From NCBI RefSeq assembly GCF_002900095.1, contig NZ_LLKN01000002.1:558001-622000 (forward strand): a stretch of DNA of 64,000 bases. The letters run 5' to 3'. The notes under the pieces were generated by a model. The model was given only the letters and a program-made list of their open reading frames with translations. It was not told the DNA's origin and searched no databases. Positions 16,479-62,373 of the stretch are shown piece by piece; positions within the stretch are counted from its first letter, which is position 1, and the number at the start of each line of letters is the position of its first letter. The DNA is from Salegentibacter mishustinae (GTDB taxonomy: Bacteria > Bacteroidota > Bacteroidia > Flavobacteriales > Flavobacteriaceae). The position numbers and the translations under genes are program-made.

Positions 16479-16552
16479 GGTCCTATAGCTCAGCTGGTTA
16501 GAGCACTTGACTCATAATCAAGGGGTCCCTGGTTCGAGCCCAGGTGGGACCA
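16479..16552 (+). tRNA. tRNA with CAU anticodon (Met elongator or Ile2)
   Basis: The 74-nt cloverleaf has acceptor arms GGTCCTA / TGGGACC, a D-arm GCTCAGCTGGTTAGAGC, an anticodon stem CTTGA/TCAAG around the loop CTCATAA, and a T-arm CCTGGTTCGAGCCCAGG. The 3' end is followed by CCA in the DNA (16553-16555). Loop sequence alone cannot separate elongator tRNA-Met from tRNA-Ile2 (lysidine-modified CAU). Its 3' half is the integration site of the island. Confidence 0.93.
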
Positions 16553-16554
16553 CC
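16511..16554. repeat. attL: 44-bp direct repeat in tRNA 3' end
   Basis: Starts CTCATAATCAAGGGGTCC and ends GGTGGGACCACC. It is identical to 62330-62373. It covers the anticodon loop to the CCA end, so integration keeps the tRNA intact. Confidence 0.93.
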
Positions 16555-16563
16555 AACAAAATC

Positions 16564-16591
16564 AAGCCTTACAGAGATGTAAGGCTTTTTT
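16564..16591 (+). terminator. Terminator after the tRNA, supplied by the island
   Basis: A 10-bp stem AAGCCTTACA / TGTAAGGCTT with a GAGA loop is followed by a T run. It lies inside the island, 12 bp after the tRNA. Confidence 0.75.
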
Positions 16592-16603
16592 GTTTCTTCT
16601 TGG

Positions 16604-16622
16604 GTACAACATATGTACAACA
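16604..16622. promoter_or_regulatory. Candidate integrase arm-type site (left end)
   Basis: GTACAACATATGTACAACA (19 bp) is identical to 62197-62215 near the other end of the island. It contains two GTACAACA half-repeats. A shared motif near both ends outside the att core is what recombinase arm or excisionase sites look like. Confidence 0.5.
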
Positions 16623-16857
16623 TTTAGGAAGCCTCTTATTTTTATCAGTAATGTAACTATCTCATGTAAAATTTAATGATGACAATAAGTATTCATACCG
16701 GATAGGCTTTTCGATATTAGTTTTTCAGATGGAATCTAGGTTTTGCACCTGATTTCCGTTTTAAGCTAAATTTTATAATATATTAGATACCTTAGCTTCA
16801 AGTTAAAAAGGTTTGTGATTGCAAATCAGTGTTATGTATTAACTTGAGAAAGGTGAT

Positions 16858-17643
16858 ATGAAACTTCCAGAACTAAGAATACAATACGTCTCAGACCTAC
16901 ATTTAGAGTTTTCGGAAAATGAAAAATTTTTAAATAAATCTCCACTAAAGCCGGAAGGGGAAGTACTCATCTTGGCTGGTGATATTATACCTCTGGTTAG
17001 ATTAGAAGATTTTGATTATTTCTTTGATCAACTTTCAAACGATTTTGAAATGGTATTTTGGATTCCTGGTAATCATGAATACTATCATTATGACGTGGGT
17101 TTGAAATGTGGCAGCTTCAAAGAGAAAATCCGGAATAATATATGGTTTCTAAATAATCAAGAAGTTGTTTTAGGAAAGTACAGATTGATATTTTCAACCC
17201 TTTGGGCAAATATATCTGTTCAAAATTCTTTTATAATACAGCAAGATTTAAATGATTTTCAGATGATAGAGTTCAATGGTAAACCTTTTACTCCAGAATT
17301 ATTCAACACCCTTTTTGAAGAAAATCATAAGTTTATTAATAATAGATTACAGCAAAAAACAGAATTAACGACGGTGGTCGTAACTCACCACGTGCCTACA
17401 TTATTCAATTACCCTAAAAAATACCGGAACAGCCAGATTAATGAAGCTTTTGCCGTAGAACTCTATAATTTGATTGAAAATGAGCAGCCAAGTTATTGGA
17501 TTTATGGACATCACCATAGTAATACACCTGATTTTAAAATAGGAAATACGTGGTTGTTAACAAATCAACTGGGTTATGTAGCGTATCATGAGTATGAAAA
17601 ATTTCAATTAGACAAAATTATTGATAGTGAAGAAAATTATTAA
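16858..17643 (+). CDS. Calcineurin-like metallophosphoesterase
   Basis: This 261-residue cytoplasmic protein has the full set of metallophosphatase motifs: SDLHLE (DxH), LAGDII (GD), IPGNHEYY (GNHE), VVTHHVP, and IYGHHHSNTP (GHxH). It has no signal peptide. The substrate cannot be told from sequence. It is the first gene inside the left end of the island, with more than 300 bp of AT-rich sequence on each side, and is not obviously part of the mobilization or mannan modules. It may be independent cargo. Confidence 0.85.
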   Translation: MKLPELRIQYVSDLHLEFSENEKFLNKSPLKPEGEVLILAGDIIPLVRLEDFDYFFDQLSNDFEMVFWIPGNHEYYHYDVGLKCGSFKEKIRNNIWFLNNQEVVLGKYRLIFSTLWANISVQNSFIIQQDLNDFQMIEFNGKPFTPELFNTLFEENHKFINNRLQQKTELTTVVVTHHVPTLFNYPKKYRNSQINEAFAVELYNLIENEQPSYWIYGHHHSNTPDFKIGNTWLLTNQLGYVAYHEYEKFQLDKIIDSEENY

Positions 17644-18052
17644 TCAGCAAGTTATTGGTTGTGCCCTGGAGGGGGAGCTTAGGAAGACAAGCCATTTAAG
17701 AAATTGAATGACTTTTTTAGTATTAACTTTTTACTTAAACTATTCCTTAATCTGCAAATTGAGCTTTGTTTCTCTATATATTTCAGAAAATCCCCATTAA
17801 GACTTGTTGCTAAGGACTTAGCTTTTCTCAAATTTTATAATCTCATTTATTCGAAACAGGTTTAATATTTCACAATTTTCAAGTTTATCACGAAGGTTTA
17901 TTAAAAGTCAGTTTTAGATATCTGTCAATTATTTCAACTTTTTATAAAGGATATTTCAAAGTTTTTATTGTTTTACAGTTAAATTATTCTTCTGATAAGA
18001 TTTGATTTCTTTTTCTCATTTAGTTTGTTTTCTAAATCAATTTTTAATCAAA
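17644..18052. other. AT-rich intergenic region
   Basis: About 410 bp with no supported gene, repeat or hairpin. It should contain the promoter for the HTH gene that follows. Confidence 0.5.
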
Positions 18053-18343
18053 ATGGAAGAAAACAAAAAAATTGAGGATCTCTTAATTGATATTAAAGGC
18101 CTCCTTGGAACCACCAAAAAAGTAATGAACGTGGAAGACCTGGCACAATACACCGGGCTCTCCAAAAGTAAGATCTATAAGCTTACGCATTTGCGGCTTA
18201 TACCAATGGGGAACAATCCCAACATTCGCCAAAAGTTTTTCGACAAGGAAAAGATCGATGCCTGGCTCCTAGGAGAACCGGACCTGTCTGATGCCTTTCT
18301 TGAAGATCAGTTCAATAAGGGCCTGATAAAAAACCGGAAATAG
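18053..18343 (+). CDS. Helix-turn-helix (excisionase-like, MerR/Xis-type) DNA-binding protein
   Basis: From the ATG at 18053 (preferred over an upstream TTG) the product is 96 residues. The core MNVEDLAQYTGLSKSKIYKL is the HTH_17/excisionase winged-helix motif, followed by IRQKFFDKEKIDAWL. Such small proteins lead the replication/mobilization region of many Bacteroidota mobile elements. They act as recombination directionality factors or regulators. It lies 36 bp before the primase-helicase gene and is probably cotranscribed with it. Confidence 0.82.
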   Translation: MEENKKIEDLLIDIKGLLGTTKKVMNVEDLAQYTGLSKSKIYKLTHLRLIPMGNNPNIRQKFFDKEKIDAWLLGEPDLSDAFLEDQFNKGLIKNRK

Positions 18344-18379: not shown

Positions 18380-19597
18380 ATGAAAAAGCTAACCTATATC
18401 CGGGTGGGTACTTGCTACTATAAATTAGTTCAGCTGCCCACTATTTCCGGGGACTTTAATGAAGTTTTAGTTCCCTGGAGTCTGGAGACCCTGCGCAATG
18501 ACCACGGCAAAGCTTATGTGGGCAAGATCAGAAAATATGATGGCTTTACCTGTATTCCTAGCCACCTGGATTTTAAGCAAGAGGTCTTTGGGTTTTATAA
18601 CACCTATGCTCCTTTGCCTCACACGCCGACAAATGGTTCCATCGACTATTCATTGCGATTTGTCAATCATATTTTCGGAAACCAGTTTGAATTAGGACTG
18701 GATTATTTGCAGCTTTTATACCTGAAACCTATTCAGATCCTGCCCATCTTGTGTTTGGTTTCAAAAGAAAGGGTGACCGGAAAAACTACTTTTCTCAAAT
18801 GGTTAAAGGCTATTTTCGATAATAACCTCACCTATCTCACCAATGATAACTTCAGCAGCCAGTTTAATGCAGACTGGGCAAACAAGCTGCTTATTTGTAT
18901 AGATGAAGTACTGTTCAATAAGGAAGAACTTACCGAGCGAATTAAATACCTCAGTACTACCGATTATAATAAAATGGAGGCTAAAGGCAAAGATAAGCGT
19001 GAACTTGAATTTTTTGGAAAGTTTATCCTCTGTAGTAATAATGAAGATAACTTCATAAAGATCGATAGCGATGAAACCCGTTTTTGGGTGCTAAAAATAC
19101 CTTCCCTTAAAACAGAAGAAACCCAATTTTTAGAACATCTAAAAAAAGAAATTCCGGCTTTCTTGTTTTACCTGCAACACCGGGAATTAGATACAGCCCA
19201 TAAAACCCGAATGTGGTTTACCCCGGAACAGATTAGGACAAATGCCTTGCAAAATTTAATGCGCAATAACAGGAACCGGGTAGAAAAGGAACTTGCTAGT
19301 ATGCTTCTAAGTGCTATGGAAACTTTTGATTTGGAAGAAGTAAATCTATGCCCTATGGATGCGCTCCAAATTTTAAACCACACCCGGGTTAGGACCGATC
19401 TTACCCAGTTGAGACAAATACTAAAAAATGACTGGAAATTAAAGAACCAGGATAATTCCCGCACCTATCAAAAAATGGTGATGTGGCAGAATGGCCTTGC
19501 GCCAATCCCCGGCAAAGGGCGCTACTATACCATTGAAAAATCCTTCTTGCTTGGGAATTTTGAAGATTTGGAAAACGATGAAACGATGCAAAAGTGA
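18380..19597 (+). CDS. Primase-helicase family protein (DUF5906-like, SF3-type P-loop ATPase)
   Basis: This 405-residue protein has a Walker A-like segment SKERVTGKTTFLKWL at about 131-145, a Walker B-like LLICIDEVLF near 173, and a sensor-type FILCSNNEDNF near 216. This is the arrangement of phage/plasmid primase-associated helicases of superfamily 3. In mobile elements these open an origin for replication after excision or transfer. It follows the HTH gene and precedes the Toprim primase. The C-terminal 130 residues (from about 270) look like a winged-helix region without a clear family. Confidence 0.78.
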   Translation: MKKLTYIRVGTCYYKLVQLPTISGDFNEVLVPWSLETLRNDHGKAYVGKIRKYDGFTCIPSHLDFKQEVFGFYNTYAPLPHTPTNGSIDYSLRFVNHIFGNQFELGLDYLQLLYLKPIQILPILCLVSKERVTGKTTFLKWLKAIFDNNLTYLTNDNFSSQFNADWANKLLICIDEVLFNKEELTERIKYLSTTDYNKMEAKGKDKRELEFFGKFILCSNNEDNFIKIDSDETRFWVLKIPSLKTEETQFLEHLKKEIPAFLFYLQHRELDTAHKTRMWFTPEQIRTNALQNLMRNNRNRVEKELASMLLSAMETFDLEEVNLCPMDALQILNHTRVRTDLTQLRQILKNDWKLKNQDNSRTYQKMVMWQNGLAPIPGKGRYYTIEKSFLLGNFEDLENDETMQK

Positions 19598-19907
19598 TGC
19601 GTGCTGTAATCCCAGTGTTATCAAGGCTTGCGGGAAGATTTGCATCAAAGCAACAAATTCGGAATACAACAAAAGAGAAAAGCCTCCGGTAATTTCTTCT
19701 TTTTTTGATGAATTGATGCAAGATAGAAATAAGACCAGTAATACTGGGGATTTTCAGCCGCATCGTTTCCGCATCACTTTATCATCAAAAATAAAACGAT
19801 GCGGAGATTTGAATCTATATGATAGTATCCAATGGGAAAATGAAAAGAAATGGAAAACACAGAAACATCAAAAAGCTGGGAAAAAGCCCGTAATATTTGC
19901 ATCGTAA
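19578..19907 (+). CDS. Doubtful small open frame between the two replication genes
   Basis: An open frame of 109 codons starts MKRCKSDACCNPSVIKACGK and overlaps the 3' end of the primase-helicase by 20 bp and the start of the Toprim primase by 58 bp. I recognise no family. The sequence is Lys/Cys-rich and lacks the look of a folded protein. The 250 bp between the two larger genes has no other candidate, so it may be a spacer. Confidence 0.25.
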   Translation: MKRCKSDACCNPSVIKACGKICIKATNSEYNKREKPPVISSFFDELMQDRNKTSNTGDFQPHRFRITLSSKIKRCGDLNLYDSIQWENEKKWKTQKHQKAGKKPVIFAS

Positions 19908-20737
19908 AAACGCTTGCAAAATTAGGGCACTTTCCCAGCAGAACAACGGAAAAAGAAGCTTGGTTTCTGAGTCCCCTGCGGTCAGAAACACAAGCCTCTT
20001 TCAGCGTCTCTTTAGTAAAGAACCTATGGTATGACTTCGGAATAGGAGAAGGAGGTTCAACGATAGATCTTATTATGCTTATGAAATCCTTTTCCGTAAA
20101 GGAGGCACTGGAATATTTAAAGAACAATACGGAGACTTTTTCTTTTAGCCCATCAAAACCTGAAGATCGTTTGAAGCAAGCGGAAATTCGAATCCTGGAG
20201 GTTGAATTGATTTACCTGCAGGGATTAGTGGATTATTTGAAATCCCGGAATATACCTTTTGAGATTGCCGCTAAATATTGTAGACAGGTTTGGTATAGCT
20301 GTAAAGGGAAACGATTTTTTGCAATCGGACTTAAAAACCATAAGGGAGGCTGGGAACTTAGAAATAAATACTTTAAAACCTCCAGTAGCCCAAAAACCTA
20401 TTCACTTTTTGAAAGAGGGTCTAAACAATTAATCATCACGGAAGGGATGTTTGATTTTCTTTCCCTGGCTACCATCGATGAAGATTTGGTTCAAAATTCA
20501 GACTGCATCATTTTAAATTCACTGGCTTTTGTGGAAAGGATAAAAATGCTCATTCCTAAATATGAGAAGGTTCTTATCTATCTTGATAATGACCCGGCAG
20601 GTAAAAAAGCAGCTAGTTCACTTTTAAACCAGTTTGATAATGTGACCGATTGCGGTGATTCCTACTCTGGATATGGAGATCTAAATGAAAAATTAATCAA
20701 TGAAGGATGCTTTAAAAAATCCCTGACTTTAAAATAA
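19850..20737 (+). CDS. Toprim-domain primase (DnaG-like) of the mobile element
   Basis: This 295-residue protein has an N-terminal CHC2-like fold whose zinc cysteines are not apparent (SPLRSETQASFSVSLVKNLW, then DFGIGEGGSTIDLIM). A Toprim domain follows at about 190-285: LIITEGMFDFLSL (the catalytic Glu) and VLIYLDNDPAGKKAA (the DxD-type metal motif). It would prime DNA synthesis on the transferred or excised strand. It is followed by a 126-bp gap with the oriT-like hairpin and then the mob genes. Confidence 0.85.
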   Translation: MENTETSKSWEKARNICIVKTLAKLGHFPSRTTEKEAWFLSPLRSETQASFSVSLVKNLWYDFGIGEGGSTIDLIMLMKSFSVKEALEYLKNNTETFSFSPSKPEDRLKQAEIRILEVELIYLQGLVDYLKSRNIPFEIAAKYCRQVWYSCKGKRFFAIGLKNHKGGWELRNKYFKTSSSPKTYSLFERGSKQLIITEGMFDFLSLATIDEDLVQNSDCIILNSLAFVERIKMLIPKYEKVLIYLDNDPAGKKAASSLLNQFDNVTDCGDSYSGYGDLNEKLINEGCFKKSLTLK

Positions 20738-20862: not shown

Positions 20863-21159
20863 ATGAAAAGGGAATACATCCAGGTTCGCTGCTCGATCTA
20901 CGAGAAGAAGCTGCTCCAAAGAAGGGCGGCCCGGGCAGGAATTTCCCTTTCAGAATATATCAGGGCAACGGCCTTTGATAAAAACATTGTAGAACGGATC
21001 ACCCCGGAACAACTGGAGACTTATAAGATGCTGGTCCAGTACAAAAACAATTTTACCCGCATTGGGAATATGTTTAAAAAGCGGGATCCAAAGCTTGCCA
21101 GGGAAGTGGAAGACCTTGCGAAAGAAATCAGGGCCCATTTAAAAAACTTTAAAAAATGA
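20863..21159 (+). CDS. MobC-like relaxosome accessory protein
   Basis: This 98-residue basic protein begins MKREYIQVRCSIYEKKLLQR and continues AARAGISLSEYIRATAF, the ribbon-helix-helix N-terminus of plasmid mobilization MobC proteins. The C-terminal half YKMLVQYKNNFTRIGNMFKK is the typical helix region (MobC domain). It would bind oriT and recruit the relaxase. Its stop overlaps the relaxase start (ATGA), so the two are translationally coupled. Confidence 0.87.
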   Translation: MKREYIQVRCSIYEKKLLQRRAARAGISLSEYIRATAFDKNIVERITPEQLETYKMLVQYKNNFTRIGNMFKKRDPKLAREVEDLAKEIRAHLKNFKK

Positions 21160-22028
21160 TAGGAAAAGGACATAGCGTTTCAGGCACCAGGGTTTCCATA
21201 TCCTATGGTTGAAACCAGGAAAAAGAAGCTGATGTCGTATTAAGAGAAAACGTGGCCGGGGATACCCCTGCAGAAATAGCCGAAGAATTTAGGATTATCC
21301 AGTCGCAAAACCTGCGATGTACCAATAACACTCTAAGTTTTATCGTCAGCCCCACGATTGAGGATGGGCAGGATCTAAGCAAAAGAGACCTGGAAGAGAT
21401 CGCCAGAAAGTTTTTAAAGGAAATGAACCTGCAAAACAACCAATCCATTGGATTTGTTCACCGGGATAAAGCGCATACTCACGTCCATATCTATACCAAC
21501 AGGATTGGTTTTGATGGCAAAGCTTACAATGACAGCTTTATCGGAAAACGAAGTCAGATAGCGGCAGATAATGTTGCTAAAGAATTAGGACTTACCAGGG
21601 TTCGGGAAGTACAAAAGGAAAAACTACACGAATTAAAGCACTTGCGACAAGAAATTAAAAATATACATGATCGCGTACTTCAGTCCAGACCAAAATCGCT
21701 AGATGAATATATCAGTAAGATGAAAGCCCAAAAGGTTGAAGTGATTCCCACCATCAATAAAGCCAATCAACTACAGGGGTTTCGGGTGGAATACAAAGGA
21801 GTAAATCTAAAAGCCAGTGAAGTGGACCGGTCGATGAGCGGGAATAGGTTAATTCCCCAGATCGCCCAAAACAGGAGTTTTACAAGGCTAAAAGAGGTGC
21901 CAAAAAGCCTTTAGGTCTTAGATAAGACAGTGCAACTAAGCAGCAATCTGTCAACCAAAATAGCTAAAGAGATTTTAAAAGGAATAGTAAAAACAGTAAG
22001 AGATACCGGTATAGGTATGGGATATTAA
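21156..22028 (+). pseudogene. Relaxase/mobilization nuclease with two in-frame stop codons
   Basis: The frame starts at the ATGA overlap with mobC: MIGKGHSVSGTRVSISYG, then TGA (21210-21212), then NQEKEADVVLREN. Related Bacteroidetes relaxases have SYGWNQEKEA here, so TGG became TGA. The body holds motif III VHRDKAHTHVHIYTNR (HxDxxHxHxH-type). A second stop, TAG at 21912-21914, interrupts the C-terminus; the same frame continues 37 codons to GMGY and TAA at 22026-22028. Repaired, the protein would be 290 residues. Only the middle (21252 onward from a GTG) could be made, lacking the N-terminal segment with SY, which probably holds the catalytic tyrosine. Confidence 0.85.
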
Positions 22029-22039: not shown

Positions 22040-22498
22040 ATGAAAAAACTAGATGAAATTATGGAACTGATGGCCGATGAGATGGATGATTTCAAAACTG
22101 CTGTACTGGAACTTCAAAAGCTTTCAGAACAATTGGTAAAGATAAGCATCCCAATAAGCACGGAAGCTGTGGAAAAGAACCTGAACACATTCCTGCAAAA
22201 ACAGGAAGCAGAAAAGCAAAAAACGGATGAAATCCTTATGGAAATTGATCGAAAATTAAAACACGCCAAGGTTATACCTAATTATTTGCTGATTCTTTTT
22301 GGAATCTCAGGAATTACTGCCCTGGGTTCAGTGGGGTATTTCGGGTACACCTCGAAAGAAAAAGTAGAAGACAATTTTGAAGTATATCGGACGATTGTGG
22401 AATCTCAAAATAAGCATTATGAAGATTATTTTGCAGCATATCCGGAAATCCAGGAGGCATACTGCGAGTGGATACAGGGTGGATACCCCGATTTGTAA
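22040..22498 (+). CDS. Mobilization-associated coiled-coil membrane protein, unknown function
   Basis: This 152-residue protein has a Lys/Glu-rich, probably coiled-coil N-terminal half (about 1-80, MKKLDEIMELMADEMDDFKT onward). One transmembrane helix lies at about 84-104 (NYLLILFGISGITALGSVGY), followed by a short polar domain with Tyr-rich HYEDYFAAYPEIQEAY. I do not recognise a family. It lies 11 bp after the relaxase frame, in the place where small membrane proteins often follow mob genes in Bacteroidota elements. A link to relaxosome docking at the membrane is an inference. Confidence 0.7.
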   Translation: MKKLDEIMELMADEMDDFKTAVLELQKLSEQLVKISIPISTEAVEKNLNTFLQKQEAEKQKTDEILMEIDRKLKHAKVIPNYLLILFGISGITALGSVGYFGYTSKEKVEDNFEVYRTIVESQNKHYEDYFAAYPEIQEAYCEWIQGGYPDL

Positions 22499-22687: not shown

Positions 22688-22711
22688 TTTATAAAATTAA
22701 ATAGGTTGCGC

Positions 22712-22767
22712 CCTATGCTGTTTTTACTTTACGCTTAACTTCCCGTACACTATAAAAACAGCATAGG
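22712..22767. repeat. Perfect 15-bp inverted repeat with 26-bp loop
   Basis: CCTATGCTGTTTTTA (22712-22726) and TAAAAACAGCATAGG (22753-22767) are perfect inverted copies. TGCGC words flank both sides (about 22706-22710 and 22772-22776), so the symmetry may extend further. The long loop and lack of a T run after the right arm argue against a terminator. A replication or transfer origin, or a protein-binding site of the element, is possible. Confidence 0.5.
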
Positions 22768-23555
22768 ATCCTGCGCAGGTTATGGTAGATATGGGGCGGG
22801 AGGATTAGCAATTAATCTTGATAATGTTAGAGATAGAATTGTTTTATGATCTAAATGTTGATTTTATGTGACGGCAGATGCTATTAAGATGTTTTATTAC
22901 ACTACAATAATTTTAAGCAATAATTCTAATTGACTTCCGACGTTATATAATGGGCTAACAAAGGGCTTAATATCTTATTTCTATAAAATTTTAAAGGGCT
23001 TAGTAAATATAAATAGAAGGTAGCTTTGACCTTATTTAAATTACTTTCAATATTATAATTCTGCTTTATCGAAAATAGGTAGCCCACACCGCTATATATG
23101 ACAAAAGCATTTAGCGAATATGATTTCCAATCTTACCTCTTACAGAAATCCGCTATCATATTTTATCAGTCCGTTTTAATTTCCATAGAATTTCGGCAGA
23201 TTTTGGGAAGAAGACATGTTATTTATTCAAATATTAGTAATACGATTTCACTACAGTTTACAAAAGTTTTTCTAAAAGTTTTTCATTTCCAATTTAAAGC
23301 ATTCATCATTTTAGATTTTAATAAAGGACAACTCGAGTAACGAAATTATGTCTTAAAATGATAAATAAGTGTTTGTAATTCGAACCCGATTAACATATCA
23401 AGGTTTGATGTTATATGGAATTGTATTGCAGACCATCCAAAACATTATCAGGTTTTGTTTCAATATTGCTTTTCTGTTTGATAAAAATTATCAATTCTTA
23501 AATTATTTGATTAGAAATTGATAAAATAATATTAACTAAAGCTTATTAAGTACTC

Positions 23556-26600: not shown

Positions 26601-26739
26601 CGGCTATAGCGGAATGGATCCTGAAATAGGTAGTGTGACTGATATTGATGGTAACGGAGGGGTTCAATCGAGAGGAGTAGATTTTGGCGCATATCCATCT
26701 CCTCAGACTTTCACAGTAGGTGTTAATTTACAATTCTAA
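23602..26739 (+). CDS. SusC/RagA-family TonB-dependent outer-membrane transporter (first pair)
   Basis: This 1045-residue protein imports oligosaccharides across the outer membrane. A signal peptide ends at VMAQ. A carboxypeptidase-regulatory-like domain follows (ITGTVTDDNGMPLPSVSILI). The SusC signature ALQGKAAGVQITQNSGGPGA then begins the plug, with IRGVGSFGNNDPLYVVDGFP and IYGVRANAGVVIIETKKG. The barrel ends with a terminal Phe (VGVNLQF). It is directly followed by SusD. It forms its own plus-strand unit at the edge of the mannan locus, apart from the second pair at 44.5-49.3 kb. Which mannan-derived sugar it takes is unknown. Confidence 0.95.
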   Translation: MSKFKGLLGLLLMLCTQIVMAQTKTITGTVTDDNGMPLPSVSILIQGTTTGVTTDFDGNYSIDNVNSNDKLIFSYVGMQEKVVEVNEQTTINVVLENDANGLEEVVLVAYGSSTQRDLTGAVGSVSSEDIEKFPATSVSQALQGKAAGVQITQNSGGPGAGLSVNIRGVGSFGNNDPLYVVDGFPTQDISFLNPNDIKSMSILKDASAAAIYGVRANAGVVIIETKKGLRDRVTVSIDSWAGFQLEPEQIDMLDVNQFTDFALEIAENQDKQVLDEWRNPGDLRNINWQDYAFDTGFRQGHNISIRGGGEKARAALSVGMVDEEGVILTSSYKRYNIGLNADYDILENLTARADMKYAYSESYQNLSQGYYGFTKLFTNVPYLDDRTGTNQPYDGNGNYGAFPDTGLLSTTNNVLASALQNDNDNGTNNLLGNLALEYSFLDGFKATGKFGFQTQNYAGWSFLPRYNRGNSNADNNPSATYTINQSTFNEYLAEGLLEYKKTFEDHRVEVLLGVSAQKNKFKNVYVESRGFLSDDIRDLAAAEEVTNRSGTWGTATFASTFGRVNYTFKDRYTLTATLRRDGVGNKFSENNLYGTFPSLAAGWNIDEEAFMENSTFDLLKLRGSWGETGNSQGIEPFQFFTSYTGGPTNDNNGYVFGGQPVSGLAPASLGNPNLGWESQVQTNVGIDAELFNRQLYFTVDYFHKSAEDFLLRETTPPQTGFTSRTVNAGNVENRGLELLVGYRKNQGDFQFDLSANFTKIENEISALTRNQDFLIFETNFVPNFVDNWLGFTRSYVGGNVGTFYGYRANGIFQTQAEIDELNAEAPDGTYQESTGANPIAPGDRRFVDLNNDGEITAADREVIGSPFPDFYGGVNFNGSYKNFELGIALYGSYGNDILNFTRVEQETAGGYGINSAYTNVSQEYYENRWTPENPSNTYARAVVEDVNQNNRVSNHFVEDGSFLRLRNIQLAYNLSPDVIENIGLTNAKVYVSGQNLLTLTGYSGMDPEIGSVTDIDGNGGVQSRGVDFGAYPSPQTFTVGVNLQF

Positions 26740-26749
26740 AATTAAAAGT

Positions 26750-46137: not shown

Positions 46138-46145
46138 CTTCAATT

Positions 46146-54627: not shown

Positions 54628-55828
54628 GTTTAAACCTATGCAGAAAAAACAAGCAACCTGTAAAATACCTGGTTACGATAAAATTCGGCAAAAGCATCAA
54701 GAATTACTTGAAACTCCAAATATGCCGGTAGATGATTCAAATGGAGTATTTATTAGATATCAAAACCCTGTCTTAACAGGAGCCCATGCTCCTCTGGAAT
54801 GGCGGTACGACTTTAATGCGGCTACCAATCCTTTTGGATTGGAGCGAATAGGGATAAATTCAACCTTTAATCCAGGTGCGATAAAATGGGGCGGAAAATA
54901 TCTTTTAGCTGTTAGAGTAGAAGGTAATGATCGCAAGTCTTTCTTTGCTATTGCCGAAAGTCCTAATGGAATAGATCATTTCAAGTTTTGGAAAAAGCCT
55001 ATTGAATTGCCACAGACTGAAATTCCCGATACCAATGTGTATGATATGCGCTTAACCAAACACGAAGATGGTTGGGTTTACGGTGTTTTTTGTACAGAAA
55101 GAAAGGATACCAATGCACCTCAAGATACTACTGCTGCGGTTGCAAATGCCGGAATAGTTCGGACAAAAGACCTAATTCATTGGGAAAGGTTACCAGATCT
55201 TATTTCTAGCTCTGGACAGCAACGTAATGTTGTGCTACATCCTGAGTTTGTTAACGGAAAATATGCAATCTATACCCGTCCGCAAGATGGTTTTATTGAA
55301 GTGGGAAAAGGAGGTGGAATTGGACTAGGTTATATCCGCGATATTACCAATCCGGTTTTAGAAGATGAGAAGATCATTAACCAAAAAGCTTATCATACGG
55401 TTTATGAAATGAAAAATGGTTTAGGTCCGGCACCAATTAAAACTGAAAAAGGCTGGCTGCATTTAGCCCATGGTGTAAGAAATACTGCGGGAGGATTACG
55501 CTATACACTATATCTTTTTATGACTGATCTTCAGGATATTGATAAGGTGATTTACCAACCTGCAGGTTATTTTATGGCGCCGAATTATAAAGAAACAGTG
55601 GGGGACGTCCCCAACGTTCTTTTTGGTAACGGCTGGATTACTGACGATGATGGGAAAGTATTTATTTATTATGCTTCTTCAGATACCAGGTCTCATGTAG
55701 CCGTTTCATCTGTAGAGATATTGTTGGATTATGTGATGAATACTAGGCAGGATAAATATACTTCATTAGAATCTGTTAAAGCAATTCTTCAGCAGGTGGA
55801 AAGTAATAAGACAATTACAGAAGGATAA
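54602..55828 (+). CDS. GH130 beta-1,4-mannosylglucose phosphorylase
   Basis: This 408-residue cytoplasmic enzyme phosphorolyses mannosyl-1,4-glucose to mannose 1-phosphate and glucose. The five-bladed propeller carries the catalytic Asp in TNVYDMRLTKHEDGW, plus FNPGAIKWGGKYLLAVRVEG, GQQRNVVLHPEFVNGKYAIY (phosphate-binding His and Tyr region) and TVYEMKNGLGPAPIKTEKGW. The length and motifs fit the GH130_1 type. The ATG at 54602 overlaps the symporter gene; a second ATG at 54638 is an alternative start. It is followed 5 bp later by the epimerase that makes its substrate. Confidence 0.93.
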   Translation: MNQILPENKFKPMQKKQATCKIPGYDKIRQKHQELLETPNMPVDDSNGVFIRYQNPVLTGAHAPLEWRYDFNAATNPFGLERIGINSTFNPGAIKWGGKYLLAVRVEGNDRKSFFAIAESPNGIDHFKFWKKPIELPQTEIPDTNVYDMRLTKHEDGWVYGVFCTERKDTNAPQDTTAAVANAGIVRTKDLIHWERLPDLISSSGQQRNVVLHPEFVNGKYAIYTRPQDGFIEVGKGGGIGLGYIRDITNPVLEDEKIINQKAYHTVYEMKNGLGPAPIKTEKGWLHLAHGVRNTAGGLRYTLYLFMTDLQDIDKVIYQPAGYFMAPNYKETVGDVPNVLFGNGWITDDDGKVFIYYASSDTRSHVAVSSVEILLDYVMNTRQDKYTSLESVKAILQQVESNKTITEG

Positions 55829-55832: not shown

Positions 55833-57026
55833 ATGCAGGTAGAAGCGGAAAAGTTTCAACATCAGCTAAAAGCTGAACTTCAAAATATTCTATCTTATTG
55901 GAGGGAGTATAGTGTAGATAAAATGCATGGCGGGTTTGTGGGAAAAAGGGACCACTTCAATAATTTGATTGAAAAGTCAAATAAAGGTGTCATTCTAAAT
56001 ACCCGATTATTATGGAGCTTTTCTGCAGCTTGTAATTTTAATAATGATCCTGAATTGAAAGTTCTGGCTGATCGTGCATACAATTACCTGGAAGCAAATT
56101 TTTATGATCCTTCTAATAAGGGGTTTTTCTGGGAAATAGATTATTTAGGAAATACCGTAAATACTCGAAAACAAATCTATGCTCAGGCTTTTAGTATTTA
56201 TTCTTATGCTGAATACTATAAGTTATCAGGAGAGGAAAATGCCAAAGAAAAGGCATTGCAAACTTTTGGGTTGGTTGAAAAACACGCGCGGGATTTAGTT
56301 GATAACGGATATCTGGAAGCTTTTCAGGCGGATTGGAAACCTATAGAGGATATGCGACTTAGTGCGAAGGATCAAAACGCTCCAAAAACAATGAATACCC
56401 ACTTGCATATTTTGGAAGCTTATACCGCCTTATTGCAAATTACAGGTGATATCAGAGTTAAAGAAGCTTTAGAGAATTTGATAAACCTATTTTTATCAAT
56501 TTTCTTAAATAATAAGACCGGCCATTTCGGATTGTTTTTCAATGAAAAATGGGCATTGCAAAATGCGGTAATTTCTTACGGTCACGATATTGAAGCTGCC
56601 TGGTTACTAATTGATGCTGCCAAAACAAGTGGTAATTCATTGTTGATCACTGAAACTACTGAGGCTGCAATTCTTGTAGCAGATACTTTTCTGAAAGAAG
56701 CTTATGTAAAAAACAAGGGTATTATTAATGAAAAAAATGAAGAAACCGGGGAAACCGACTTAGACAGGCACTGGTGGCCACAAGTTGAAGCTATGTTGGG
56801 TTTACAATATGCTTTTAATATTTCGGGAGATAAAAAATACCAAGCTGCGATATTGGATATCTGGGATTTTACCCAAAACAATTTAATAGACAGGCAAAAT
56901 GGCGAATGGTTTTTTAGAATAGACCAGGCCAATAAACCTTATATACAAGAAGATAAACTAAGCATGTGGAAAGCACCTTACCATAATTCCAGGGCGCTAA
57001 TGATGCTTTTAAAAGAAAAAAGATGA
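55833..57026 (+). CDS. Mannobiose 2-epimerase (AGE family), cytoplasmic
   Basis: This 397-residue protein without a signal peptide is an (alpha/alpha)6-barrel epimerase. It would convert mannobiose to mannosyl-glucose for the GH130 enzyme. Visible blocks include VILNTRLLWSFSAACNFN, KTMNTHLHILEAYTALL, VISYGHDIEAAWLL, DRHWWPQVEAMLGLQYAFN and MWKAPYHNSRAL, holding the conserved catalytic His pair and Trp residues. Context next to GH130 and the symporter makes the mannobiose activity much more likely than GlcNAc 2-epimerase. It overlaps the next GH26 gene by 4 bp. Confidence 0.92.
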   Translation: MQVEAEKFQHQLKAELQNILSYWREYSVDKMHGGFVGKRDHFNNLIEKSNKGVILNTRLLWSFSAACNFNNDPELKVLADRAYNYLEANFYDPSNKGFFWEIDYLGNTVNTRKQIYAQAFSIYSYAEYYKLSGEENAKEKALQTFGLVEKHARDLVDNGYLEAFQADWKPIEDMRLSAKDQNAPKTMNTHLHILEAYTALLQITGDIRVKEALENLINLFLSIFLNNKTGHFGLFFNEKWALQNAVISYGHDIEAAWLLIDAAKTSGNSLLITETTEAAILVADTFLKEAYVKNKGIINEKNEETGETDLDRHWWPQVEAMLGLQYAFNISGDKKYQAAILDIWDFTQNNLIDRQNGEWFFRIDQANKPYIQEDKLSMWKAPYHNSRALMMLLKEKR

Positions 57027-58285
57027 AAAAACTTAGCTATTTTTTATTGGTATTTGTGCTTTTAACAGCCTGTAGTAAGGATGATGAGATAATTAACGAA
57101 CCAGACGAGGAACAGGGAAACCCTGAAGAAGAAATTCCGGAAGAACCTGAAGAAGAAACTCCAGAAACTTATGCTTTTGCGCCGGAAGAAACACTAAGCT
57201 ATATGGTAGATGCATCGGCTACTGCTGAAACGGTTGCTTTATTTTATAACCTAAAATCGGTTTCAGATAATCATTTTATAGTAGGCCAGCAGGATGCATT
57301 CAGCTCGTTCTTTGATGGAAATGATGGTTTTTCTGATATGAAAAAAACTACACTAAGCGATCCTGGCTTGTTGGGGTCAGACTTTATGTTTATAACCGAT
57401 GATCAAAACGATGGTACTGCACAGAACTGGTTTTATCAGCAGGAGCAACAAATTATAAATAATGCTTTACGCGCTTATAATAGCGGAATGATTAATGCTT
57501 TTACCTGGCATCTTCGGGAACCTTATGAGGGAGAGACCTTTTATTCCGATGAAATGACCGAATTTCAAAGGCAAAATGCTTTTAAAAGTATTCTTCCCGG
57601 TGGTGCGAATCACGACTACTATAAACAAAAACTGGACAAGGTTGCTGAAGTTTCTCTAAATATGATAGGAGAAGACGGTACGCTTTCTCCCATTATTTTC
57701 CGACCATTTCACGAGTTTGAAAAAGACTTTTTCTGGTGGGGGGCTGCTTACAGTACCCCTGAAGAATTTAAAACTGTATGGCGTTTTACGGTAGATTATT
57801 TAAAGAATGAAAAAAATGTTCATAATCTACTTTATGCATTTTCTCCCGATAATTCTTACTTAACCAAATCTGCTTACCTGGAGAGATACCCCGGCGATGA
57901 ATATGTAGATATTTTGGGAATGGATAATTATGGCGATCTTATTGCCCAGGATGGTTCTGGTTTAAATGCTGCCAACCAAAAATTACAAGTAGTTTCAGAT
58001 CTTGCCAAAGAGAGGGTAAAAGTAGCTGCCCTTACAGAAACGGGCTATTTTGTAACTCCTTCCCAAACCAGCCTTGCCGAGAAGTTTTATTCTGAAAACC
58101 TTTATGGGGTACTTACGAATAATGATGTGAATATTGGTTTTATGATGTTTTGGCAGAACTACGAAGATTCTTATACCGTACCACTCCCGGGAATGGATGG
58201 CGAAGAAGATTTTGTAGACTTTGTAGCAAAGGATGAACCATTATTATTGAATGATATGCACGATTTCTACAGTCTTCCAAACTAA
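57023..58285 (+). CDS. GH26 beta-mannanase lipoprotein (third copy)
   Basis: This 420-residue lipoprotein (signal ending LLTAC) has a very acidic linker of about 40 residues (EEQGNPEEEIPEEPEEETPE) and a GH26 domain. The acid/base Glu lies in IIFRPFHEFEKDFFWWGA and the nucleophile Glu in AALTETGYFVTP; MINAFTWHLREP is the family block. The long charged linker suggests display at the cell surface. It ends the plus-strand operon; its stop overlaps the stop of the converging esterase gene. Confidence 0.93.
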   Translation: MKKLSYFLLVFVLLTACSKDDEIINEPDEEQGNPEEEIPEEPEEETPETYAFAPEETLSYMVDASATAETVALFYNLKSVSDNHFIVGQQDAFSSFFDGNDGFSDMKKTTLSDPGLLGSDFMFITDDQNDGTAQNWFYQQEQQIINNALRAYNSGMINAFTWHLREPYEGETFYSDEMTEFQRQNAFKSILPGGANHDYYKQKLDKVAEVSLNMIGEDGTLSPIIFRPFHEFEKDFFWWGAAYSTPEEFKTVWRFTVDYLKNEKNVHNLLYAFSPDNSYLTKSAYLERYPGDEYVDILGMDNYGDLIAQDGSGLNAANQKLQVVSDLAKERVKVAALTETGYFVTPSQTSLAEKFYSENLYGVLTNNDVNIGFMMFWQNYEDSYTVPLPGMDGEEDFVDFVAKDEPLLLNDMHDFYSLPN

Positions 58286-59658
58286 TTTTGTGTTGTAAAA
58301 CTTGAAGCTGGCAAGCCTGCTACGTTAAAAATATTGGAGCTTGCTGTATTCTGCCAGGAGTACCTTACAAAAACAGGGTTCTTAACTGCTTTGGCTTTTA
58401 AATGAATTATATTGTTTTTAATTTCCATTCTAGCAGGATAGAATTTTTTATCAGATCCGGCAATCTCAAACTGAGATTCGGGATTTTCCCGACCAATTTT
58501 TAAACCTTCTGAATACTTAAAATGTACTTTCACTATTTTTCCTTCAGTAGTTATATAATCAAACTGAGGGGCGTGGGCTTTAATCTTTTTTCCGTAAACT
58601 TCAGCTAAAGCCAGGTTGGCAAATCTTATTCCAGGTGTGAGTTTATCTTGAGGATGGATGTCGTGAATATTTCCTACATCACTGGTCATCACCATTCCTG
58701 TTTTTGATAATTTTAAAACCTTTCGTTGCGCGTCTCTTACCTTTACCCCCGCAAACCCCTCTCCATAATCATATGGAGCAATTTGAGCATAGTAGAAAGG
58801 AAGATCTTCTTCCCATTTGCTTCTCCAGCTTTTAATCAAACTGGTAAAAATCTCTTCGTAATAATCAGCATTTATGGTATTAGATTCTCCCTGGTACCAA
58901 AGTATTCCCTTAATTTTCATTGAACTTATGGGGTAAATCATAGCGTTGTATAAAAGAGCAGGTTTTATTGGTCCCCATTCATTTTCCTCTAGCATTTTAG
59001 CAGCTTTCTTTAAAGTATCATTCTTATTAAATAACACTTCAGGCATCCATACTTCGGCCGGTGTACCTCCCCAACTGGCATTTATAATTCCAATTGGTAC
59101 ATTTAAATCTTCCTGTAATTTTTTAGCAAAAAAATAGCCTATTGCGCTAAAATACTTCATCGTTTCCGGTGAACTTTCTACCCAATTCCCTTCTAAATCT
59201 ATTTGTGGTGAATCGGCTGTTCTGTGGTCAACGCTAAAAAACCGAATATTTTTGTTTGTCGAATTCCTAATAGCAGCTTCGGCATTGTTTATCCCTGCTG
59301 AAGCACTCCATTCCATATTAGACTGCCCCGAAATTAGCCACAGCTCACCTAGTAAAAGGTTTTTTAGGTTTACCTGGTTGTAGCCGGTAATAGTTAATTG
59401 GTGGGGTCCTTTTTTTGCGTTCGTTTGTATCTCTATGCTCCACATAGCATTTTTATCGGCTTTGGTGGTGTATATTTTATCACTCCAGGTAGAACTTATT
59501 TCTATTTCTTCCCCTGGTTTAGCCCAACCCCAAATGTTGACGTTGGCTTCACGTTGCAATACCATATTATCTCCAAAAACACCTGGCAGACTGACATTTG
59601 CAAAAGCTGGCGTTTGAGATAGGAAGCAAAGGCTAAAAAGGATTAATAATTTCTGCAT
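58282..59658 (-). CDS. Sialate O-acetylesterase-like SGNH carbohydrate esterase
   Basis: This 458-residue secreted protein (signal ending AFA) resembles the sialate O-acetylesterase family. Serine is in LWLISGQSNMEWSASAG; further blocks are IINASWGGTPAEVWMP, GILWYQGESNTINADYYEE and VGNIHDIHPQDKLTPG, whose His would be the catalytic one. It would remove acetyl groups. Beside mannanases the natural target is more likely acetylated mannan than sialic acid. It is 4 bp from the CE2 gene upstream and probably cotranscribed with it. Confidence 0.87.
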   Translation of the reverse strand: MQKLLILFSLCFLSQTPAFANVSLPGVFGDNMVLQREANVNIWGWAKPGEEIEISSTWSDKIYTTKADKNAMWSIEIQTNAKKGPHQLTITGYNQVNLKNLLLGELWLISGQSNMEWSASAGINNAEAAIRNSTNKNIRFFSVDHRTADSPQIDLEGNWVESSPETMKYFSAIGYFFAKKLQEDLNVPIGIINASWGGTPAEVWMPEVLFNKNDTLKKAAKMLEENEWGPIKPALLYNAMIYPISSMKIKGILWYQGESNTINADYYEEIFTSLIKSWRSKWEEDLPFYYAQIAPYDYGEGFAGVKVRDAQRKVLKLSKTGMVMTSDVGNIHDIHPQDKLTPGIRFANLALAEVYGKKIKAHAPQFDYITTEGKIVKVHFKYSEGLKIGRENPESQFEIAGSDKKFYPARMEIKNNIIHLKAKAVKNPVFVRYSWQNTASSNIFNVAGLPASSFTTQN

Positions 59659-59661: not shown

Positions 59662-60744
59662 TTATGATTTTAAAAGATTTCTAAAAAAGGGAATGAGTTG
59701 TTTTGCCATTGCTTCATGGTTTTCTATATCAGGGTGCCCTGTACAACCTCCTGGAGATATATTTTTAAACTGAAAAATTGTGATTTCCTTTTCTAAGAAT
59801 TCATTTTTGATCTCCTTAAAAACATCAGAAAGGATAGATTTCTGTTCGGCGTTAAGCATGGGACTATCAAGTAAAGCAATTTTTACATTTGGGTATTTTG
59901 AAAAAAGCATTTCAACAAAGTCAATATAAGCAGTCGTAAATTTCTCCCGGTTAAATTCTGTACGCTTTTTCTCCCCATCTCCTAACGAAAAATCATTAGT
60001 ACCGAGGGCAATACTAATTATATCAGGAGCATTTTCAAAATTTCCTTTTTCCTTCGAGTCAGAATTTAAATAGAGATTCTCATAGACATCAGGCATTACT
60101 GGCTGGTCTTCATCATTCCAGTTTCGGTACATTCCCATTCCTGAAACACAATTCAGTTTAAAATCAGTATCTAGTGCCCGCGCAATTCTGGGGCCATAAG
60201 CCATATAAGCGTTATGCTGATCGTACCACTCTCCATTACCACAAGGAATCTCTAGAGTATCTGCACCCATTCCACACGTAATAGAATTTCCAATAAATTC
60301 AATTTCCGGCCTTTTGGGAAGATCTAATTTATCGATTTCAAACGCTTCAATTTTTTTGACAATAACTGCGCCGGTAGAGGCTTCAGTAGCTTTAAATATG
60401 GAAATGTCGTGAAAACCTGTCCTATCGTTTAAAGGGAACTTTAAGGGAAGGCTTTTTTTTACCTTAAAACGTCCTTTATAAGTATCACTAATTTCAAGAT
60501 TAATATAAGCGTGATCTGTTTCGGGTAATTCAAAATCAACAATTAAAGTATCAGTTTTTGCTTTAAAATGAATAGCTGAAGCAGAATTAATCAAAATTAG
60601 GCTGGAGTCCTTTTTTTCGGAAGTTCTGCCTGATGTGGAAACTAGCTCCGTGGAAACACTATAGGAATTCCGGGATTTATCTTTTGATATATTACAACTT
60701 GAAATACAAACAATTAAAATAAGGAAAAGTAGAAATCTATTCAT
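59662..60744 (-). CDS. CE2-type acetyl esterase lipoprotein (jelly-roll plus SGNH)
   Basis: The ATG at 60744 (MNRFLLFLILIVCISSC) gives 360 residues with a lipobox; an upstream TTG at 60780 is not needed. The N-terminal part (about 30-135) is a beta-sandwich and the rest an SGNH domain: EFIGNSITCGMGADT (Ser), ISIALGTNDFSLGDG (GxND), and GCTGHPDIENHEAMAKQLIP (His). This is the layout of CE2 acetyl esterases active on acetylated mannan or xylan. It is the last cargo gene before the integrase. Confidence 0.87.
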   Translation of the reverse strand: MNRFLLFLILIVCISSCNISKDKSRNSYSVSTELVSTSGRTSEKKDSSLILINSASAIHFKAKTDTLIVDFELPETDHAYINLEISDTYKGRFKVKKSLPLKFPLNDRTGFHDISIFKATEASTGAVIVKKIEAFEIDKLDLPKRPEIEFIGNSITCGMGADTLEIPCGNGEWYDQHNAYMAYGPRIARALDTDFKLNCVSGMGMYRNWNDEDQPVMPDVYENLYLNSDSKEKGNFENAPDIISIALGTNDFSLGDGEKKRTEFNREKFTTAYIDFVEMLFSKYPNVKIALLDSPMLNAEQKSILSDVFKEIKNEFLEKEITIFQFKNISPGGCTGHPDIENHEAMAKQLIPFFRNLLKS

Positions 60745-60958
60745 AGAGGTTTTTAACGCTAATTTAAAGCTTTTAACCAACAGTTATTTGTATGATTTTT
60801 TCAACAATTAATATCATTTTTACATTTATTAATGTTGAGAAAATAAGCGGCTTCAGAATTCAATTTGCTTCATAATTTACAGCTTTGATAAAAGCAAATA
60901 TTGAAAAGTAATTCCAAGTAGTTATTGAATTTATAGTTTAATTAGAAATTCTATATAA

Positions 60959-62164
60959 TTACTGCAACAATAATTCACTGGCTTCATCCAGTATGGCAGT
61001 ATCGAGCTCTTTTAGATAAGCTTTGGTGGTTTTTATATCCTGGTGACCGAGGGATTCACTTATGATATCTGTTCCCGCACCTTTTTGTTTTAAACAATTG
61101 GCGAAGCTATGTCTGGCAACATAACTCGTAATGGGTTTATCAATTTCTGCGAGACTTGCTAATTCTTTTAGATCTTTATTAAACTTGCTCAGGGTTTTTC
61201 TTTTCCTGTCGTTTAATTGTGTGGGGGTGAGGTTGTCCCTAAAAAGTATTGGAAAAATGTACGGTCTTTTATTTTTACGGTAATAGTCAAGTATTTCTTT
61301 TACCGGTGGCATAATTTTGATAATGAAGTTTCCCTTGGTTTTTGCTCTTGTATAATGAATTCTGTCACCGGAAACATTACTCCATTTGAGCCTCATCATA
61401 TCGGCGAAATTCATTCCCCTGGTATAAAAGCTAAAAATAAAAAAGTTTCTACTGTTGATTAGATGAGGCTTATCACTTAAATCTAAATTTTGTAGGTTAT
61501 GGACCTCTTCAATGTTAAGGGCTTTTTTAATTGCTTTACCTTTTAGTTTGGATATATTATAGTGTTTAAAAGGGTAAAGTTTTTCATCTATTATTCCCCT
61601 TTTTATTGCCACATTGAAAATAGCCCGTATAGCTCGCATTTTCACGCCAATACCTCCACCGGTTCCGCCTTTATTGCGAAGGTGTACTTCATATTTATCT
61701 AAAAAGGTAGGGGTCACTTCGTAAAAATGTAAAGACTTTTGTTTTGTGAATTTCTGCATTGAATTCTTAGTATGGTGATAAATGGCTGCATTGCTCATTC
61801 TCCCTGCCGCTTTAAATTCATCAATTTGCTCTTGCCAAAATGCGAATATATTTGAAGCTTCAGGATTTGATTGCGTTCTAAATTTCCTTTCAAAATCATT
61901 CAAAGAATAGAAGTCCTGGTTCATTTCCAATTCACTAATTACTTCTAAAGCACGATCTTCAAATTTTCCTATTAATCGATTTGACTTAAGTTGCTGAGTA
62001 AACTTCTTATTAAAGCGTCCCAACTTAGAATCCCATTCATTTAAATTAGCTTCGAATGGAGTTCCGAAAAATTTAGATTTACGATCTTTGGTTACCCTTA
62101 ATAAGACTGGGTATTTTCCGTTTCTTAGTGAAGTTTTACGAAGGATGGTTTTAATTGAAGCCAT
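60959..62164 (-). CDS. int: Tyrosine recombinase (integrase) of the island
   Basis: The ATG at 62164 (MASIKTILRKT) gives 401 residues; the longer frame from 62224 reads through the arm-site motif and is rejected. An arm-binding N-terminal domain (to about 90) and a SAM-like core-binding domain (about 95-200) precede the catalytic domain: Arg in FYTRGMNFADMMRLKW, HxxR as SYVARHSFANCL, then SLGHQDIKTTKAYLKEL with the nucleophile Tyr. This is the Bacteroidota phage-integrase type. It lies 165 bp inside the right direct repeat, in the usual position for an element integrating into a tRNA gene. Confidence 0.94.
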   Translation of the reverse strand: MASIKTILRKTSLRNGKYPVLLRVTKDRKSKFFGTPFEANLNEWDSKLGRFNKKFTQQLKSNRLIGKFEDRALEVISELEMNQDFYSLNDFERKFRTQSNPEASNIFAFWQEQIDEFKAAGRMSNAAIYHHTKNSMQKFTKQKSLHFYEVTPTFLDKYEVHLRNKGGTGGGIGVKMRAIRAIFNVAIKRGIIDEKLYPFKHYNISKLKGKAIKKALNIEEVHNLQNLDLSDKPHLINSRNFFIFSFYTRGMNFADMMRLKWSNVSGDRIHYTRAKTKGNFIIKIMPPVKEILDYYRKNKRPYIFPILFRDNLTPTQLNDRKRKTLSKFNKDLKELASLAEIDKPITSYVARHSFANCLKQKGAGTDIISESLGHQDIKTTKAYLKELDTAILDEASELLLQ

Positions 62165-62196
62165 AGCTTTATCTTTTAAATTTCCATCGATTTTAT

Positions 62197-62215
62197 GTAC
62201 AACATATGTACAACA
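62197..62215. promoter_or_regulatory. Candidate integrase arm-type site (right end)
   Basis: GTACAACATATGTACAACA, identical to 16604-16622, lies just upstream of the integrase start. It may serve recombination, autoregulation, or both. Confidence 0.5.
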
Positions 62216-62329
62216 AATTGACAAATAAAGGTAATTTAAAGAAACTAAAATAAAAATAAATATTCATAAAACATTGATAATCAGGTAAATGAAAGTAAAT
62301 GAAAATTACAAGTATGCTAATTTAGACTT

Positions 62330-62373
62330 CTCATAATCAAGGGGTCCCTGGTTCGAGCCCAGGTGGGACCACC
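62330..62373. repeat. attR: 44-bp copy of the tRNA 3' end
   Basis: Identical to 16511-16554, beginning CTCATAATCAAGGGG. Upstream bases no longer match a tRNA 5' half, so this copy is only a fragment. Confidence 0.93.

Follow-up and report, generated by a model that had tools for sequence, protein, structure and literature searches.

Boundaries and gene content of the island

The DNA considered here is a stretch of 64,000 nucleotides from Salegentibacter mishustinae (genome of 3.82 Mb in 5 contigs; G000:C2:558001-622000), referred to below as the window, with positions counted from its first letter. The sole tRNA gene found in it, tRNA-Met(CAT) (ARAGORN; Rfam RF00005), is followed by an island of 45.8 kb that combines replication and mobilization genes with glycosidases, esterases and SusC/SusD proteins pointing to the use of beta-mannan (Table 1). 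Very probably the island goes back to an integrative mobilizable element that carried a polysaccharide utilization locus (PUL) into the tRNA gene.

Both ends of the unit can be read in the sequence, as the first-pass annotation had claimed. Its 44-bp direct repeat proved exact on rechecking, the first copy (16511-16554) forming the 3' part of the tRNA gene and the second (62330-62373) lying beside a gene for a tyrosine integrase; a simple count (~2e9 position pairs x 4^-44) puts the chance expectation of such a repeat at ~1e-17. The integrase frame, running on the minus strand from an ATG at 62164 to 60959 just inside the second copy, is open over 401 amino acids and carries Arm, SAM-like and Phage_integrase domains (Pfam). 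An 18-bp repeat that occurs exactly twice in the window, near the left end (16604) and near the integrase start (62197), may provide the arm sites of the integrase. Three features expected of an integrative mobilizable element were found: a site-specific integrase at one end, target-derived direct repeats at both ends and a target that is continuous in island-free relatives (see below). The integrase would have recombined the attachment site of the element with the 3' end of tRNA-Met(CAT). Since the element would bring an identical 44-bp tRNA tail, the tRNA would stay intact, and the old tail would be left as attR.

A Pfam scan covered 32 of the 41 island open reading frames (ORFs) of at least 90 amino acids, the remaining nine overlapping scanned genes. 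The cargo comprises seven hydrolases (GH43, three GH26, GH9, GH27 and GH5) and one GH130 phosphorylase, together with two esterases (SASA and CE2-type), an SSF symporter, two GlcNAc_2-epim epimerases, an AraC regulator, two SusCD pairs and two surface-protein candidates. The last two, a fasciclin/SGBP_B protein and a TIG protein, correspond to the binding proteins of the first-pass annotation, whose list of SusCD pairs, esterases, symporter, phosphorylase, epimerases and regulator was recovered in full by Pfam. Its count of at least eight glycosidases has to be amended to seven hydrolases, the eighth being the GH130 phosphorylase, and one further protein of 643 amino acids matched no Pfam or NCBIfam family. 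A protein 65% identical to the latter is encoded in the mannan locus of another genome, G405; a structure prediction for the island protein (mean predicted local distance difference test score, pLDDT, 44.6) was set aside.

The cargo contains the SusC/SusD pair, glycosidases and regulator that define a PUL, and also the genes that characterize a Muricauda-type beta-mannan PUL, that is at least two GH26, a GH130 mannosylglucose phosphorylase, a GH27, an epimerase and a GH5. Two of the GH26 proteins match solved enzymes closely (E values of 2e-157 to GH26A for the one at 33529-34518 and 3e-161 to GH26C for the one at 57023-58285). Judging by the entry names, we take these two structures, PDB 6q75 and 6q78, to be the Muricauda enzymes of PMC9860051. 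Judged by sequence, the cargo would be a beta-(galactogluco)mannan utilization locus, with substrate and enzyme roles predicted from these similarities, and its putative activities fit the beta-mannan route described for Muricauda in the part of PMC9860051 available to us. The GH26, GH5 and GH9 enzymes and the esterases would open the polymer, SusCD would import the oligosaccharides, GH27 would trim galactose, and the symporter, the epimerase and the GH130 mannosylglucose phosphorylase would complete the breakdown. The epimerase-phosphorylase step of mannan breakdown is known from Bacteroides.

Table 1. Features of the island and of its borders, in window positions
Feature	Position	Strand	Evidence
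tRNA-Met (CAT), insertion target; 3' part holds attL copy	16479..16555	+	ARAGORN, Rfam RF00005
attL copy, 44-bp direct repeat	16511..16554	+	repeat search
Left end carried by the island, with terminator-like sequence; 18-bp arm-like repeat at 16604-16621	16555..16621	+	like ends at this tRNA in 6 other genomes of the genus
Metallophosphoesterase	16858..17643	+	Pfam PF00149
HTH_17 protein, putative excisionase-like protein or regulator	18002..18343	+	Pfam
DUF5906 / VapE-like protein, presumed helicase	18380..19597	+	Pfam
Toprim/CHC2 primase	19850..20737	+	Pfam
NikA-like mobilization protein (MobC)	20863..21159	+	Pfam
MobA-type relaxase frame, pseudogene, stops at 21210-21212 and 21912-21914	21156..22028	+	Pfam, frame check
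DUF6730 protein, also beside the relaxase in several sister elements	22040..22498	+	Pfam
Conserved hairpin, candidate transfer origin or other mobilization site	22700..22800	+	compensatory changes
First SusC/SusD pair	23602..28282	+	Pfam
IS3-family insertion sequence	28802..29943	-	Pfam; 100% identical genomic copy
GH43 with C2 domain	29985..31529	-	Pfam
643-amino-acid protein without family	31563..33494	-	C-terminal 127 amino acids similar to the final part of GH30 xylanase B (E 4e-5)
GH26, best solved match GH26A (PDB 6q75)	33529..34518	-	Pfam, structure-sequence match
GH9 with CelD_N domain	34536..37016	-	Pfam
AGE-family epimerase (GlcNAc_2-epim)	37176..38552	+	Pfam
IS200-like Y1 transposase	38934..39392	+	Pfam; element 100% identical elsewhere in genome
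GH27, alpha-galactosidase type	39602..40819	-	Pfam
Fasciclin / SGBP_B surface glycan-binding protein	40898..43414	-	Pfam
TIG-domain protein, presumed surface protein	43464..44537	-	Pfam
Second SusD/SusC pair, conserved in mannan loci of other genera	44554..49316	-	Pfam
GH5, endoglucanase type by best solved matches	49590..50558	-	Pfam
AraC-family regulator	50571..51491	-	Pfam
GH26, third	51654..52775	+	Pfam
SSF sodium:solute symporter	52789..54627	+	Pfam
GH130, best solved match 4-O-beta-D-mannosyl-D-glucose phosphorylase	54602..55828	+	Pfam, E 6e-167
AGE-family epimerase, best solved match cellobiose 2-epimerase	55833..57026	+	Pfam
GH26, best solved match GH26C (PDB 6q78)	57023..58285	+	Pfam
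SASA-family carbohydrate esterase	58282..59658	-	Pfam
GDSL esterase with CE2 N-terminal domain	59662..60780	-	Pfam
Tyrosine integrase, 401 amino acids, adjoining attR	60959..62164	-	Pfam
18-bp arm-like repeat, second copy, upstream of integrase	62197..62214		repeat search
attR copy, 44-bp direct repeat	62330..62373	+	repeat search
Chromosomal terminator, presumed displaced by the island	62374..62433	+	directly behind the tRNA in G006 and G002; looser match in G004

Empty and occupied sites in the genus

If the island was inserted, relatives without it should have the tRNA joined directly to position 62,374, the comparison that the first-pass annotation had proposed. Our set consisted of 14 other Salegentibacter genomes, 13 of which were read at the tRNA (G013, 61% complete, was left out), and the query was built in silico by joining the left flank, first repeat included, to the bases after the second repeat. 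The joined flanks align without interruption through the tRNA and the following terminator in G006 and G002, with a few changes in the tRNA copy of G002. The site is less clear in G004, where the flanks align more loosely and the genome's own terminator is closer to window positions 62961-63003 (97.7% over 43 bp). A marker from the right flank (~2190-2390 of the query) lies ~1.5-2.1 kb behind the tRNA in all three; it is also present in G003, G005 and G007, off the contig of the tRNA or behind other insertions. Other terminators follow the tRNA in G007, G009, G010 and G012, with no left end of the island.

That left end is found behind the same tRNA in six other genomes (G001, G003, G005, G008, G011 and G014). 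Integrases 82-93% identical over nearly the full length (84-94% in another comparison) are encoded in G001, G003, G005 and G011, and a fragment in G008. Complete repeat pairs bound islands of 36.3 kb in G011 and 12.2 kb in G005, and in both the helicase-primase part is 77-80% identical in DNA to that of the window. The mobilization genes of G005 are also close to those of the window, and those of G011 are remote (67% DNA identity; relaxase 54% and MobC 48% at the protein level). No mannan genes were found in the repeat-bounded islands of G011 or G005. The search for the same island at this tRNA in related genomes recovered the integrase and the left end with different cargo.

As read from selected ORFs only, this cargo includes a TonB receptor, a PepSY protein, an aldehyde dehydrogenase, a Fic protein and a type I restriction system in G011, a Fic protein in G005, and a large ATPase with weak STAND/NACHT matches below the cut-offs in G003. 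The island of G008 is decayed; its left-end metallophosphoesterase is 88% identical to that of the window, and a SusC-like receptor, a CBM96/fasciclin protein, a GH20-like protein, an SSF symporter and the uronate isomerase UxaC are among its genes. In G001 (S. agarivorans), the integrase contig carries a type I restriction system, and the tRNA contig (L282, L170; C16) a GH106, two GH78-type rhamnosidases, a SusD and a SusC-like stretch. The two contigs are unjoined in the assembly, and the rhamnosidase and SusD genes form another polysaccharide locus, probably on an island of the same family, of which G001, G008 and G014 hold decayed pieces. Decayed tRNA tails were also noticed by eye before a right-flank-like terminator in G005 (L183 ~1750-1840, on G005:C118) and G003 (L171 ~17180-17300, on G003:C6), presumably from earlier insertions at the same place.

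A wider survey took in the best 80 of 116 confirmed integrase loci. A copy of the repeat (at most 6 mismatches) lies within ~260 bp of the integrase start in 32 of the 80, indicating that the preference for this tRNA is widely shared. On the inner side of the integrase, visible only to ~10 kb and in part perhaps beyond the element, a SusC-like stretch was present in 11 of the 80 and this type of relaxase in 9. A possible second case of mannanase cargo came from a Bacteroidetes bin (L116 8078-9802), where GH26-like stretches (35%) lie less than 7 kb from a 59% identical integrase that adjoins a copy of the tRNA tail with 5 mismatches.

Replication, mobilization and present mobility

The mobilization and replication genes named in the first-pass annotation are present at 18380-21914 (helicase-like DUF5906, Toprim primase, NikA-like MobC and MobA-type relaxase), but the relaxase frame is interrupted by in-frame stops at 21210-21212 and 21912-21914. 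The uninterrupted relaxases of G005 and G011 (288-289 amino acids) are colinear with this frame, and with stops at two places a sequencing error is an unlikely cause. The description of the island as mobile has to be qualified for a relaxase interrupted twice, and we accordingly treat the island as descended from an integrative mobilizable element and not as a complete member of that class. Integrative mobilizable elements with a MobA-type relaxase include, for example, the NBU and Tn4555 types. These have in common with the island an integrase, a primase, MobC, a relaxase gene and no conjugation machine seen on the element; going by their description, the large catabolic cargo and the interrupted relaxase set the island apart. 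No conjugation-machine family was found among the 32 ORFs scanned, and the island is accordingly not classed as an integrative conjugative element (ICE).

As it stands, the element would be unable to drive its own transfer, and transfer at present would depend on functions supplied in trans, such as a near-identical relaxase elsewhere in the genome together with a conjugation machine. An uninterrupted relaxase 96% identical to that of the island is indeed encoded near C2:2,020,158 of the same genome, with MobC at 95% and DUF6730 at 87% identity, and the genome has two TraG-type ATPases, both away from the island. It is nearly an even call whether the island is by now decayed and fixed, no longer excising or transferring, a view that is compatible with our explanation as it concerns the present of the island and not its origin. 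Such a state would agree with the two relaxase stops, with the decayed pieces of the family in G001, G008 and G014, and with the IS3-family and IS200-like insertion sequences inside the cargo, both probably recent, since each has a 100% identical copy in the genome. The open integrase frame and the identical att copies argue against it, as they suggest that excision may still occur, and so do the 96% identical relaxase and the TraG-type ATPases found elsewhere in the genome.

Tyrosine integrases, VapE-like genes and primase genes are known also from phage satellites and plasmids, and their occurrence here would fit a prophage-like or plasmid-derived integration instead of a conjugation-related element. 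None of the 32 ORFs scanned belongs to a capsid, tail, packaging or partition family, and a NikA-like and MobA-type module is present; we regard such an origin as very improbable.

About 200 bp after the DUF6730 gene lies a hairpin that recurs near the intact relaxase elsewhere in the genome and is a candidate transfer origin. Five of its 19 predicted pairs are changed on both sides and still paired among 12 aligned copies; it has no match in Rfam. Among the 24 matches listed (the window included, and some places represented twice), 12 have relatives of the relaxase, MobC or DUF6730 within 4 kb and 12 do not. Copies near relaxase modules were seen in several Flavobacteriia elements (L288 10955-11051, L168 5657-5752, L289 8436-8532 and others), and one copy lies in a stretch with an RteC-like gene. 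We tentatively propose, while rating it somewhat below an even chance, that there is a family of integrase-bounded islands in marine Flavobacteriaceae for which one tRNA-Met 3' end is the dock for interchangeable whole PULs (the mannan locus here, the rhamnosidase locus of G001, the genes around the SusC-like receptor of G008), the islands stacking and decaying there and the shared hairpin allowing movement in trans by the relaxase of another element.

Counterparts and origin of the mannan locus

The region 40850-60790 was used to search the DNA of all 15 Salegentibacter genomes. No long SusCD match was found in the relatives, where SusCD pieces of 120-177 bp were the only ones. Neither of the outcomes that the first-pass annotation had set against its claim, mannan genes at this place without the repeat or integrase and mannan genes conserved by descent throughout the genus, was seen in this search. 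The mannan SusC was then compared with the proteins of 397 genomes of the family, drawn evenly, 95 of which pass the threshold of E 1e-150. Besides the SusC of the window itself, the best of these reach 72, 71 and 70%. Two Salegentibacter genomes, G006 and G010, are listed at 38 and 37%; as they are the only relatives within the genus shown to be in this sample, the absence of the locus from the genus is taken from the DNA search. A search of genus g8 gave a close SusC in four of its 12 genomes (75, 69, 69 and 68%).

In G415, a genome of another genus, 17 genes stand in the order of the window: CE2, SASA, GH26, epimerase, GH130, SSF, GH26, AraC, GH5, SusC, SusD, TIG, SGBP, GH27, epimerase, GH9 and the 643-amino-acid protein. 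Collinear loci are present in G409, G411 and G405 as well, CE2 and SASA being missing from the stretch read in G411 and GH5 from that read in G409, and the core of the locus is found in G043, G053, G274 and G126. No match to the island integrase or backbone was found in the 40-60 kb read per collinear locus of g8, nor one to the integrase in the stretches read around the other loci. The nearest integrase-family match is at least 100 kb from the locus in G043, G053, G274, G405 and G126, and ~31 kb from SusC in G188. The g8 loci read showed neither the first SusC/SusD pair nor the GH43 nor the GH26 at 33529-34518, and by this comparison these genes look like additions to the locus.

Several observations weigh against our explanation of the island. 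Its relaxase frame has two in-frame stops. Base composition, tried as a mark of foreign origin, gave no useful contrast, the GC content of the island (0.371) hardly differing from that of the left flank (0.384). No donor was found among the genomes searched, the closest SusC, in g8, being 75% identical. Within the genus, G001 and G011 have an AraC-SSF-GH130 stretch followed by fragments of island-family backbone, and G008 and G014 have kept a diverged AraC alone, all at 72-75% DNA identity. The cargo GH9 has 84-87% identical genes in G001, G005, G008 and G009, where the core genome stands at ~85% (97-kb block), and could have been captured locally. A beta-mannan PUL is moreover described for Salegentibacter sp. 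Hel_I_6 in the accessible part of PMC6298971. Together, the diverged pieces, the GH9 and the Hel_I_6 PUL indicate that this was not the only encounter of the genus with mannan genes and that the cargo is not wholly foreign to it. On G001:C19 (121514-123713, L248), a GH130 fragment and an epimerase (79.5%) are fused to an integrase end (89%), possibly the scar of a related, perhaps mannan-bearing island in S. agarivorans.

One could thus imagine that the island arrived without mannan genes and that the locus was assembled, or recombined in, later from one resident in the genus. The near-core identity of the GH9, the AraC-SSF-GH130 and AraC pieces, the two insertion sequences and the genes not seen in the g8 collinear loci (SusC1/SusD1, GH43 and one GH26) would all be expected from such a history. 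We nevertheless find it unlikely, as the order of 17 genes is the same in another genus, the resident AraC-SSF-GH130 pieces are, at 72-75%, far below the core, and a long SusCD match is present in none of the 14 relatives. We favor a model where the element would have arrived by conjugation with the locus already aboard. Our confidence in the island as the vehicle of the PUL is high, tempered slightly by the weaker empty site of G004 and by an absence from the genus that comes from one DNA search.

Polysaccharide loci on mobile genetic elements (MGEs) have been described before. Gut Bacteroidetes are reported to have 47 SusC+SusD loci on MGEs (PMC6907783), and loci for porphyran, agarose and carrageenan have been found on ICEs or on mobilizable plasmids (PMC8845570). 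The window shares with the gut cases a SusCD-containing locus inside an integrase-bounded element, and differs by its marine Flavobacteriaceae host, its beta-mannan cargo, the resolution of both ends and of the empty tRNA site, and the interrupted relaxase. A beta-mannan PUL of B. ovatus and B. xylanisolvens has been inferred to have moved laterally; in the sections of PMC8845570 at hand, the authors find most such variable regions to be without mobile-DNA functions and propose intergenomic recombination.

The PUL of Muricauda sp. MAR_2010_75, which targets galactoglucomannan according to the excerpt of PMC9860051, is similar in its GH26A- and GH26C-like enzymes, GH27, GH130 mannosylglucose phosphorylase, epimerase, GH5 and SusCD. 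In that excerpt its regulator is a hybrid two-component system (HTCS) and its GH5 a GH5_26, whereas the island has an AraC regulator and a GH5 with PDB 5ihs as best solved match. The accessible text uses none of the terms mobile, integrase, horizontal and tRNA; "genomic islands" appears there twice, at least once as a general name for PULs. PUL 342 of Salegentibacter sp. Hel_I_6, from the same genus and known to us by its description, is a beta-mannan PUL reported to be inducible by mannan and to include two or more GH26 and a GH130 (available parts of PMC6298971, PMC9860051 and PMC9213526). Hel_I_6 is reported there to have a GH76, whereas the window genome has none over the cut-off (one weak match), and it is probably another species; the word integrase is absent from the accessible text on Hel_I_6 in PMC6298971 and PMC9213526. 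In a literature search that left subscription journals mostly uncovered, no title or abstract start named a mannan PUL on a tRNA-integrated element.

The island is best read as a polysaccharide locus on a mobile element, a kind already known, of which it is a well-resolved marine example. Patchy distribution is often the ground for inferring that PULs have moved laterally; in this case the unit presumed to have moved can be compared directly, together with its ends, the empty site, the sister islands with other cargo and the counterparts in other genera. What the case adds is the marine setting, the comparison set, the repeated use of one tRNA by islands that differ in cargo, and a genome where the interrupted relaxase has a near-identical, uninterrupted counterpart. 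The gain in one step of a pathway for diatom or plant mannan would bear on diet change in algal-bloom bacteria, and since the integrase frame is open and the relaxase interrupted, dependence on a second element becomes a testable question.

Two smaller observations concern the cargo. The regions upstream of the two SusC genes are alike (23505-23563 and 49420-49478, 73% over 59 nucleotides, inverted), as if they held a common promoter or regulator site, and direct repeats 516-519 bp apart at 40908-41858 correspond to an internal duplication in the fasciclin/SGBP gene.

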